A stretch of 47,380 nucleotides of DNA from a virus. The translations under genes and the position numbers were made by a program. The stretch spans positions 1 through 47,380 of the IMG/VR virus record IMGVR_UViG_3300035670_000355; one strand, given 5' to 3'. This document shows, one piece after another, positions 76-47,380 of this stretch; position 1 is the stretch's first letter, and each line of letters starts with the position of its first letter. The notes beneath the pieces are model-generated. The model made no database searches. It worked only from the letters and a program-made list of their open reading frames with translations, and was not told the origin of the DNA.

Positions 76-89
76 TGATCAAAGGATCA
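76..89 (-). repeat. Hairpin just downstream of VR (copy 1)
   Basis: TGATCAAAGGATCA forms a 5-bp stem with a 4-base loop a few bases beyond the 3' end of the variable repeat in coding orientation. An identical copy lies at 47229-47242 behind the right-hand variable repeat. DGR target sites such as BPP-1 carry a short-stem, 4-base-loop hairpin at this position that helps target recognition. Here the role is inferred from position; the stem is shorter than in the known cases. The variable repeat at 46765-46858 does not have it. Confidence 0.4.
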
Positions 90-461
90 AATGGGCAATC
101 TGCGGACGGCTCGGGCACGGAACTCGCTGCTCTTGGGGATGCTGCCCTGGTAGCCGTAGCCGAAGAACTGATACCAAGCCCAGGAGGACTCTTCCTCGTC
201 GTCATCGGGCTCGCAGGGCGTGTTGGACCAGTACGCGCGCTCCTGGAACTCGCTCTTGAAGTGCTTGAACAGCAGGGCCTGCTCGACGCGGTCGGGCAGA
301 TCGCCGCCGATGCTCTTGGCCCATTCGAGCTGGGCCTGCCAGGTGGCGCCGTCGTTGTCGCCCGGCAGCAGGATGAGGTGGTAGGCCTCACCGTTGGCGT
401 TGCCGATCAGGCCGGTGTAGAGCTCGCCTTCAGCGAGCGGGGGCTTGGGAATCACTTGCAT
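87..461 (-). CDS. DGR variable protein (C-type-lectin/DUF1566-like fold)
   Basis: A 124-aa protein with no signal peptide or membrane segment. The core LPDRVEQALLFKHF...AYWSNT matches the DUF1566/Lcl type of C-type-lectin fold, and the C-terminus SSWAWYQ...EFRARAVRRLPI is the variable repeat region. The last ~30 codons align with the template repeat at 46124-46217, differing only at template adenines. Its N-terminal part differs from the 46754-47212 protein, so it is a diverged paralogue. It follows rdgC in the leftward operon (38-bp gap). It presumably displays a hypervariable ligand-binding surface; the ligand is unknown and no tail-fibre domain is attached. Confidence 0.85.
   Translation of the reverse strand: MQVIPKPPLAEGELYTGLIGNANGEAYHLILLPGDNDGATWQAQLEWAKSIGGDLPDRVEQALLFKHFKSEFQERAYWSNTPCEPDDDEEESSWAWYQFFGYGYQGSIPKSSEFRARAVRRLPI
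95..188 (-). repeat. Variable repeat VR-a of the DGR
   Basis: A 94-bp segment homologous to the template repeat at 46124-46217. Thirteen substitutions are visible in the variable block, every one at a position that is adenine in the coding-strand template. The invariant 3' part (coding orientation), which encodes EFRARAVRRL, would be the initiation-of-mutagenic-homing (IMH) region. It forms the 3' end of the 87-461 gene. Confidence 0.9.
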
Positions 462-44791: not shown

Positions 44792-45023
44792 GCTCCACCT
44801 CCTGGCCCGCCAGGCTGCGCACCACCTCGATGGGCCAGACCTTGATGCTGCTGCCTGCCAGTTCACGGCCTGCGGGCACCTTGCCAGATGCCACCCAGCG
44901 GTGCCAGGTGGAGCGATCAATGGGGAGCAGGCCCTGCTTGCCCGTCTTCGGGTTGCGGCAGATGTCCTGCACGCGCACCAGGGCGCCTGGAGGGTAGGGC
45001 TTGGGGGGTGTCGCGGCGTTCAT
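44784..45023 (-). CDS. AlpA/excisionase-like HTH protein coupled to the DGR RT
   Basis: A 79-aa protein. VRVQDICRNPKTGKQGLLPI, then RSTWHRWVASGKVPAGRELAGSSIKVWPIEVVRSL (in parts), gives a MerR/AlpA-type helix-turn-helix and wing. AlpA-like proteins act as excisionases or activators. Its ATG overlaps the RT stop (ATGA) with a GGAG upstream, so it is made together with the RT. It could be the phage excisionase or a DGR-linked regulator. Confidence 0.7.
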   Translation of the reverse strand: MNAATPPKPYPPGALVRVQDICRNPKTGKQGLLPIDRSTWHRWVASGKVPAGRELAGSSIKVWPIEVVRSLAGQEVEHA

Positions 45024-46222
45024 GCGAATCTCCGGTATGTTTTGGTCAATTCGGCCTTGACCGCGTGCCCGCGGCCCCGCAGCAGGTTGGCAAGCTGGGC
45101 GCGGTCGTGGTGGCTGTGGGTGGCCTGGCGCAGCAGGCCGAAGTAGCTGTTGGCGCTCTCCAGCAACTCGCCCGCTTCGGTGTGTGCGAGCCGGTCGAGG
45201 GCCACATGCAGGGTCTTCCTGCGCACCGTGCGTCGCCATGGCTTGATGACCTGGCCGACGAAGTCAACGCCGCGATGAAGCGGCTGGATGATGGTCTTGC
45301 GCGGGTTCAGGCGTGCTGCCAGTTGCTCAGGCAGGAAGGCTTCGATTTGCCGGTGGGCGTGGCTGAGCCACTCGGCGGACTCGTGCAGCAGCACGAAGTC
45401 ATCGACGTAGCGGATGTAGTGCCGGGCCTTAAGGCCGTGCTTGGCGAACTGGTCCAGCTCATTCAGGTAGACGTTGGCGAAAAACTGGCTCGACAGGTTG
45501 CCGATGGGCAGCCCCAGGCGGGCGGGTTGCTCGGCCAGTCGCTTGTGGCGCGGAACCAGGGCCAGCATGCTGGCGTCGCCGCGCAGTTCGAAGTCCTGGC
45601 GCGGGTCGTGGTGCAGCACGGTGTGCATCAGCGTGCGCCACCATGGCTCGGGCACGTGGCGGTCAAGCAGGCCCTGCAGGATGACCTTGTCGATGCTGAC
45701 GAAGAAGTTGGCCAGGTCGCACTTGAGGTAGTGCGCTGTGCGTGCCCAGTTCTGGGTGACGCTGCGCACCTTGGCCTCAAGGCGGTTGGCGGCGTAAAGC
45801 GTGCCGCGCCCCGGGATGCAGGCGCAGCTGTCAGCGATGAACCGGGCGTAAAAGCGCGGTGCGATCCGGTTGTGCAGCAGGTGGTGCACGACGCGGTCGC
45901 GGAACTCGGCGGCCCACACCTCGCGTGGCTTGGGGTGGGTGATGACAAAGCAGATCGAGCGGCCGGGCTTGTAGGCACCGGCCAGCAGCTCGTCGTACAG
46001 GTCACGGAGGTTGCGCTCCAGGCGTGCTTCGAAGGCCAGCGCGCTGGCGCTGTTGCGCTTGGTGCGGCGGCAGTCGAAGTAGGCCTGGGCGACTTCAGCA
46101 AAGGTCAGGTCAGCAGGTGCGCTCCAATCTGCGGACGGCTCGGGCACGGAACTCGTTGTTCTTGTGGTTGTTGTTCTGGTTGCCGTTGTTGAAGTTCTGA
46201 TACCAAGCCCAGGAGGACCCAT
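45020..46222 (-). CDS. DGR reverse transcriptase
   Basis: About 400 aa from the ATG at 46222, of which ~365 form the enzyme. RT motifs: YLKCDLANFFVSIDKVILQGLL (fingers) in parts, LPIGNLSSQFFANVYLNELD (motif 4 with the DGR-type GN.SSQ signature), YIRYVDDFVLL (catalytic YVDD) and GVDFVGQVIKPW. It copies TR RNA with adenine errors and delivers it to VRs. The frame is open across the TR and no ATG/GTG/TTG follows it, so the true start is unclear. It follows avd and TR in the order of BPP-1. Confidence 0.93.
   Translation of the reverse strand: MGPPGLGIRTSTTATRTTTTRTTSSVPEPSADWSAPADLTFAEVAQAYFDCRRTKRNSASALAFEARLERNLRDLYDELLAGAYKPGRSICFVITHPKPREVWAAEFRDRVVHHLLHNRIAPRFYARFIADSCACIPGRGTLYAANRLEAKVRSVTQNWARTAHYLKCDLANFFVSIDKVILQGLLDRHVPEPWWRTLMHTVLHHDPRQDFELRGDASMLALVPRHKRLAEQPARLGLPIGNLSSQFFANVYLNELDQFAKHGLKARHYIRYVDDFVLLHESAEWLSHAHRQIEAFLPEQLAARLNPRKTIIQPLHRGVDFVGQVIKPWRRTVRRKTLHVALDRLAHTEAGELLESANSYFGLLRQATHSHHDRAQLANLLRGRGHAVKAELTKTYRRFA
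46124..46217 (-). repeat. DGR template repeat (TR)
   Basis: A 94-bp template between avd and the RT. In coding orientation its variable block is rich in AAC/AAG codons, typical of DGR templates, and it shares the invariant 5' (TGGGCTTGG) and 3' (CGTGCCCGAGCC...) flanks with VR-a, VR-b and VR-c. It carries 24 adenines in the variable block. Confidence 0.93.
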
Positions 46223-46358
46223 CGTGCTTGACACGTCGCCCTGCCGAGTGCTCAGCAGGGAAACTGCGCCGGACCTTCCTGGCGCGATGCCAGGGGTCTC
46301 CGTGGTGCGCATGGCGGTGGCCTTGTGAGCCAGCTGCACGACCAGATTGAAAGAACGC

Positions 46359-46733
46359 TCAGGCATGGCGGCCTTGACCTCCATGCTGCGGGCGTGTTGC
46401 GCTGCGGCGCCACCCGTTGGCCTGCTTCCCGATGCTGGTGGTCAGCTCGACCGCCTTGGCATAGCCGGGCTTCGAGATGAGCCTCTTGTCCATGGCCAGG
46501 CGGATCATGAGCTCGATCACCTGCAGGCGCTCAAGCAGCTCCAGCAGGTGCGGCCCCTTGTCCTGCGCAACGTTGGCCCGGAAGACCAGCACCGTGATCT
46601 CGATGCACTCCGTGGCGATCTTGTCGCCGATGGAGCGCTTGAAATCCCGCTGCATGTTCTTGACCAGGTCGGTGACCACGTCGAGCAGGTCGTAGGCGAC
46701 CTTGTAGATGGGAAGTTGGGTGTGGGTGGCCAT
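46359..46733 (-). CDS. avd: DGR accessory variability determinant (Avd)
   Basis: A 124-aa four-helix-bundle protein: PIYKVAYDLLDVVTDLVKNM, KRSIGDKIATECIEITVLVF, LLELLERLQVIELMIRLAMD and YAKAVELTTSIGKQANGWRR are the four helices. Avd binds the RT and TR RNA and is required for mutagenic homing in BPP-1. It lies between the last variable protein and the TR, as in BPP-1. Confidence 0.92.
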   Translation of the reverse strand: MATHTQLPIYKVAYDLLDVVTDLVKNMQRDFKRSIGDKIATECIEITVLVFRANVAQDKGPHLLELLERLQVIELMIRLAMDKRLISKPGYAKAVELTTSIGKQANGWRRSATRPQHGGQGRHA

Positions 46734-46753: not shown

Positions 46754-47212
46754 TTACTCAATGACCAATCTGCGGACGGCTCGGGCACGGAACTCGTCGT
46801 ACTTGTGGCGGTCGCTCTGGTAGCCGTCGCCGAAGTGCTGATACCAAGCCCAGGAGGAGTTGGTCTCGTGGGCCTGGCCGGACCAGTACCAGGCCTCTTG
46901 GAACTCGCCCTTGAGGTTGGCGAAGAGCAGCGACTGCTCGGCCCGCGTGGGCAGCTCGCCGCCTTGCTCGGTGGCCCAGGCAATGGCCTGCTCCCAGGTC
47001 TTGTCTTCGGCTTCGCCGGGCAGCAGCACCAGGTGGTGGCTGGGCTTGCCTTGCTCGTTCAGGATCAGGCCTGCGTAGCGCTCGCCCTGGCTCAGCTCGA
47101 TGTCGGTGCCGGGGATGTGCAGGATGGCGGGCAGCGCCGCCTTGAAGGAATCGATCAGCTTGCCCAGCTCGATGTGGCGGGCCTGCAGATCTTCGATGGT
47201 GATGGTTTGCAT
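46754..47212 (-). CDS. DGR variable protein (complete copy)
   Basis: A 152-aa protein. A helical lead MQTITIEDLQARHIELGKLI, then RYAGLILNEQG, LVLLPGEAEDKTWEQAIAWA, GGELPTRAEQSLLFANL and AWYWSGQ make the DUF1566/C-type-lectin-like core; the C-terminus SSWAWYQ...EFRARAVRRLVIE is variable. No signal peptide, no membrane segment and no fibre domain, so the product is predicted to be cytoplasmic or virion-internal unless attached to another protein. It is the copy nearest avd. Confidence 0.88.
   Translation of the reverse strand: MQTITIEDLQARHIELGKLIDSFKAALPAILHIPGTDIELSQGERYAGLILNEQGKPSHHLVLLPGEAEDKTWEQAIAWATEQGGELPTRAEQSLLFANLKGEFQEAWYWSGQAHETNSSWAWYQHFGDGYQSDRHKYDEFRARAVRRLVIE
46765..46858 (-). 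repeat. Variable repeat VR-b of the DGR
   Basis: Aligned with the TR over 94 bp. Eleven substitutions, all at template adenines; the invariant IMH part is unchanged. It forms the 3' end of the 46754-47212 gene. Confidence 0.92.
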
Positions 47213-47228
47213 GTGGAACCTCAGTGAA

Positions 47229-47242
47229 TGATCAAAGGATCA
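47229..47242 (-). repeat. Hairpin just downstream of VR (copy 2)
   Basis: TGATCAAAGGATCA, identical to 76-89, 6 bp past VR-c. Candidate DGR target-recognition hairpin. Confidence 0.4.
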
Positions 47243-47380
47243 AATGGGCAATCTGCGGACGGCTCGGGCACGGAACTCGTCGTTCTTGCGGCCGTAGTAC
47301 TGGGTGCCGTTGACGAAGAGCTGAAACCAAGCCCAGGAGGAGTTGGTCTCGTGGGCCTGGCCGGACCAGTACCAGGCCTC
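47240..47380 (-). CDS. DGR variable protein, C-terminal fragment (cut by window edge)
   Basis: The last 46 codons of another variable protein, reading EAWYWSGQAHETNSSWAWFQ and then the variable block to EFRARAVRRLPI. Outside the variable block the 39 bases before it (47342-47380) equal the matching bases of the complete copy (46859-46897). It is therefore a recent duplicate differing only where the DGR acts. The N-terminus lies outside the window and may be the fragment at 1-59. Confidence 0.85.
   Translation of the reverse strand, partial: EAWYWSGQAHETNSSWAWFQLFVNGTQYYGRKNDEFRARAVRRLPI
47248..47341 (-). repeat. Variable repeat VR-c of the DGR
   Basis: Aligned with the TR over 94 bp. Twelve substitutions, all at template adenines. 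It forms the 3' end of the partial gene at 47240-47380. Confidence 0.92.

Follow-up and report, generated by a model that had tools for sequence, protein, structure and literature searches.

Adenine-specific differences between the template repeat and variable repeats of a phage-borne diversity-generating retroelement

The DNA analysed here, referred to as the window, was the whole 47,380-bp virus record IMGVR_UViG_3300035670_000355. Because it carried phage-type genes for terminase, portal, tape measure, tail, RecE/RecT-like and integrase functions, the cassette found in it is phage-borne, and the phage carrying this cassette was probably temperate. Annotation revealed a reverse transcriptase (RT) gene, a template repeat (TR), a structured RNA, an avd accessory gene and lectin-type target genes ending in variable repeats (VRs), the positions of which are given in Table 1. 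With RT, TR, Avd and two targets of the C-type-lectin kind, the cassette is that of a complete diversity-generating retroelement (DGR).

Table 1. Features of the cassette and of the ends of the window (VR, variable repeat; TR, template repeat; RT, reverse transcriptase)
Feature	Position	Strand	Basis
Target gene c, 124 aa, VR at 3′ end; counterpart of the relatives' second target	87..461	-	weak Lcl_C match
VR of target gene c, 13 A-changes	96..188	-	gapless alignment
DGR reverse transcriptase (RT), putative start codon	45020..46147	-	phrog_1423 at 4e-111, RVT_1, alignment to 8ub7
TR, 93 bp, 28 A, encodes SSWAWYQNFNNGNQNNNHKNNEFRARAVRRL in the VR frame	46125..46217	-	gapless alignment
RT-15 structured RNA (RF03018), leader directly 5′ of TR	46215..46397	-	covariance model, 169 bits vs gathering cut-off of 82
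avd accessory gene, 124 aa	46359..46733	-	PF22296 above cut-off, phrog_3206
Target gene 1, 152 aa, predicted C-type lectin fold, VR at 3′ end	46754..47212	-	weak Lcl_C match, structure model, fold search
VR of target gene 1, 11 A-changes	46766..46858	-	gapless alignment
Contig-end redundancy or repeat, 126 bp identical to 1-126	47154..47279	.	sequence comparison
Third VR sequence at contig end, 12 A-changes; putative separate target gene	47249..47341	-	gapless alignment

The RT was assigned to the DGR clade by its profile matches and by an alignment to PDB chain 8ub7 (7e-37), which covered the palm motifs LPIGNLSSQ and RYVDD (SQ and YxDD-type); this chain is titled just "Reverse transcriptase", and it is presumably the enzyme of BPP-1. 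A sequence search of Avd against solved structures gave no match at E 0.01. Target gene c adjoined an rdgC-like gene. The Lcl_C matches of the targets were weak and below the curated cut-off. The structure model of target 1, with a mean pLDDT of 94, had a C-type lectin fold, and its best structural matches were the Legionella Lcl C-terminal domain and a Bdellovibrio Bd2740 domain (Z about 13). Target 1 is, according to this model, a C-type-lectin-fold protein, in agreement with a survey in which DGR targets nearly always had such folds (PMC8144416), and target c is a putative member of the same fold class. Both proteins would presumably have a role in binding.

Four 94-bp segments of the minus (coding) strand, the TR (46217-46124) and the segments 46858-46765, 47341-47248 and 188-95, were aligned without gaps. 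The alignment revealed that, over 46125-46217, all 36 differences from the TR (11, 12 and 13 in the three copies, respectively) were at template adenines, which bears out the counts of 13, 11 and 12 in the earlier note; 36 of the 84 adenine sites were changed, compared with none of the 195 non-adenine sites (65 per copy in three copies). That note had also stated that no C, G or T was changed over 94 bp. This is correct for 46125-46217, where the alignment contained no non-adenine substitution, but not for the edge base 46124, which was G in the TR and C in two of the copies (two non-adenine differences); because of this change, the homologous block was taken as the 93 bp of 46125-46217 and base 46124 was regarded as flank. 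The number of template adenines, previously given as 24, had to be revised to 28, with about 24-25 in the variable core and 19 changed in at least one copy. If 11, 12 and 13 substitutions were placed at random in 93 bp with 28 A, the probability of every one falling on A would be 3.5e-7 x 7.3e-8 x 1.4e-8, or about 4e-22.

All 28 changed codons in the three window VRs were nonsynonymous, and the changed codons were mostly AAC and located within the VR near the C-terminus of the lectin fold. The TR contained nine AAC codons, each able to give 15 residues but never a stop, and only two stop-capable codons (AAG and AGA), both of which were unchanged in all three VRs. Clustering of the changed codons within a short part of the lectin domain, and purely nonsynonymous change, would also be compatible with ordinary gene duplication and later drift, with diversifying selection acting on a binding loop and no retroelement involved. 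However, such a process cannot spare all 195 non-adenine sites while changing 36 of 84 adenines, the RT and avd genes adjoin the template, and about 260 other TR/VR pairs show the same A-only pattern; this explanation is refuted by the A-only pattern, and we regard its probability as vanishingly small. Adenine-targeted damage or deamination (A-to-I editing) in place of reverse transcription would account for changes limited to the A of one strand, but it yields A>G only and would not homogenise the non-adenine positions to the TR. The 36 substitutions comprised 19 A>G, 12 A>T and 5 A>C; this share of A>T and A>C (17 of 36, and 1588 of 3139 in the family of related cassettes) excludes simple deamination, and the idea is extremely improbable as a whole.

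It is therefore almost certain that 46125-46217 on the minus strand is the TR of a DGR, a known kind of system. Adenine mutagenesis by this DGR in the window is strongly supported by the joint presence of RT, Avd, TR and lectin-type targets and by the recurrence of this bias across the family. In the model for BPP-1, the TR RNA undergoes error-prone reverse transcription by RT and Avd, and the VR is replaced by the cDNA (PMC12875486). By analogy, the RT of the window phage, together with Avd, would reverse-transcribe the TR transcript to cDNA with misincorporation opposite adenines, and this cDNA would take the place of the matching 3′ end in the target genes, so that each target would carry a version of the TR in which some of the A positions hold random bases. 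The window cassette may still be active at the present day.

Searches with the RT found 80 loci in viruses and 80 in prokaryotes, of which the closest were about 75% identical at the RT; the named relatives were Burkholderia phage Magia and Shewanella phage vB_Sb_QDWS. The same A bias was present in about 130 related phage and prophage cassettes. In 264 unique TR/VR pairs, 3139 changes were at template A vs 72 elsewhere, a ratio somewhat favoured by the search because the pair finder allows at most three non-A differences per pair. Across the family, only a small fraction of adenines was mutated close to the 3′ end (within about 25 nt) or at the far 5′ end, compared with about 0.3-0.6 in the stretch between them; such a profile would be expected if mutagenesis, or tolerance of change, were mainly a property of the interior. 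Between TR and VR of the same phage, differences were present at 50 of 17,698 non-A sites (0.3%), whereas the TRs of other phages differed from the window TR at 1119 of 7663 such sites (14.6%). The earlier note had placed the mutagenesis probably in this lineage, and the comparison supports this indirectly: none of the 65 non-A positions differed between the window VRs and the window TR, but the TRs of the nearest relatives differed from the latter at 4-10 of about 60. The VRs thus track their own TR, and copying from TR to VR in the window phage has taken place later than the split from its nearest known relatives. An exact 30-mer from the VR 3′ constant region had 0 matches in viral contigs, so that no same-species contig was found. 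For another member of the family, two contigs of one phage (L051 and L062) were identical over 2,570 bp except for 15 sites, all located in a VR and 14 of them at template A, which indicates that the DGR family is active in nature. With at least two lectin targets, the window phage is a clean case of targeted hypermutation; its cassette belongs to a family of more than 100 related ones, and its A-only pattern, together with the perfect conservation of non-A positions, is evidence of repeated, fairly recent copying.

Positions 1-126, at the window start, were an exact repeat of 47154-47279, near the window end, and the record is probably either circularly permuted or broken inside a tandem repeat of target genes. 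The previous statement that adenine mutagenesis had acted on all three targets is only partly supported. Gene 1 and gene c are certain as target genes. As to the third, its VR is located at the contig end in a repeated stretch, and its gene is cut off there after 39 bp, which match gene 1 and not gene c. The possibility that this VR is a mosaic of the other two was rejected, since it has seven private derived bases and so reflects a third mutagenesis event. Whichever reading of the number of targets is adopted, 47249-47341 is a third, independent mutagenesis product, although not necessarily a third target gene.

The usual order in the relatives was a gene c-type target, a gene 1-type target, avd, TR and RT, the VRs preceding the TR by about 645 and 1130 nt. 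We give an even chance to there being two targets only, in which case 47249-47341 would be a population variant or a misjoin at the contig end, and 1-126 would be the same place as 47154-47279 in a circularly permuted genome. This is consistent with the gene c type lying directly before the gene 1 type in the relatives at a TR offset of about -1130, the window copy being at -1124. Joining the window ends at the 126-bp repeat places gene c at the usual offset and gives the order found in relative L012 (rdgC, gene c, gene 1, avd, TR, RT), and the third VR would then fall where the gene c VR lies; furthermore, identity upstream of the VR never exceeded 84% between adjacent targets in the relatives (alignments only a few bases long left aside). 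However, the 39 bp after the third VR being gene 1 and not gene c, a chimeric join must be assumed. Slightly short of an even chance is given to a set of three targets, arisen by tandem duplication of gene 1 with the assembly broken in the repeat. The gene 1 sequence after the third VR and an overlap pattern as from a repeat of about 440 bp point to such a duplication, and three tandem targets were found in relatives L068, L072, L084, L107 and L108, but near-identical tandem targets were found in no relative. Between a tandem copy of gene 1 and a contig-end variant or misjoin, the probabilities are about evenly divided.

It was also noticed that relatives L010, L012, L032, L044 and L060 had a remote extra VR-bearing target, 2-5 kb from the TR, beside two adjacent ones. 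In a Janthinobacterium prophage (L112, 1-6100), at least four VRs were found for one TR, with two targets 84% alike upstream of the VR.

The RT-15 match (46397-46215) ended 3 nt inside the TR. RT-15, which is said to have been defined by Weinberg in 2017, was present in every one of the 50 further viral relatives tested, with its 3′ end no more than 5 nt from the TR start in all 50, and in relative L024 it stayed beside the TR although about 1 kb separated the TR from the RT. Among 13 genomes carrying more distant RTs, one had RT-15, there too at the TR. The case for an RT-15 structure rests on the Rfam model, because the folding energy of the stretch alone was weakly better than that of shuffles (z -1.8).

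On the other side of the TR, the RT-homologous codons began about 20 nt after the TR in the window and 7-44 nt after it in the relatives, and the nearest in-frame RT start, a candidate start codon, was a GTG at 46147, inside the TR. In 124 of 127 loci the RT reading frame was open across the TR, and in most it remained so further upstream; in the window it extended over 45020-46384 (-). A TR overlapping the annotated RT ORF is described in the DiGReF survey (PMC3521204). A translated N-terminal extension of the RT through the TR was considered but dropped, since the part upstream of the TR lacked a coding-type substitution pattern: it showed no third-position excess (0.20, 0.23 and 0.25 at the three codon positions, vs 0.22, 0.17 and 0.52 in the RT itself), which suggests that this stretch is conserved as RNA. 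There was also no sign of a hidden spacer RNA within the RT 5′ end, where third positions were as variable as elsewhere in the RT.

Among known systems, the multi-VR DGRs in excerpts of the DiGReF survey (PMC3521204), including those of Burkholderia and Ralstonia, likewise have at least two VRs per TR, but their sequences are different and these excerpts contain no mention of RT-15. In Burkholderia phage Magia (MT701587) the genes are in the same order, avd being preceded by two small genes, and the cassette has an annotated RT, Avd and lectin fold, and RT-15 before the TR; its nucleotide identity to the window is 71.7% over 97% of the cassette, although it is far from being the same species and has other flanking genes. 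The DGR of Bordetella phage BPP-1 (mtd-avd-TR-brt) shares with the window the order target-avd-TR-RT, A-specific TR/VR differences, a VR at the C-terminus of the target and an RT homologous along most of its length, but this RT is only about 31% identical to that of the window. BPP-1 has one target, in contrast to the two or three targets of the window, which are outside the tail genes. The BPP-1 model includes an inverted repeat just 3′ of the VR, whereas inverted repeats downstream of the family VRs were not above shuffles; in the window, a 5-bp stem was present after the gene c VR and none was clear after the gene 1 VR.

The two cassettes also differ around the TR. BPP-1 has avd directly adjoining the TR and, between TR and RT, a structured spacer of 144 nt (RF03022), whereas in the window 141 nt with RT-15 lie between avd and the TR, and the RT follows almost directly after the TR; RF03022 had no match in the window or in three relatives, but had matches in BPP-1. 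From the position of RT-15 5′ of the TR, the short TR-RT gap and the lack of extra synonymous constraint in the RT 5′ region, the structured RNA appears to be on the opposite (5′) side of the TR from that of BPP-1. A wider proposal, for and against which we see equal weight, is that the proteobacterial DGR clade of the window has another RNA architecture, in which RT-Avd would be recruited by an RT-15 leader 5′ of the TR and not by a 3′ spacer, and the Rfam family RT-15 would correspond to the 5′ half of the template RNA of a DGR; if so, cDNA priming must be arranged differently. In its placement of RT-15, the window cassette differs in a testable way from the best-studied DGR, that of BPP-1.
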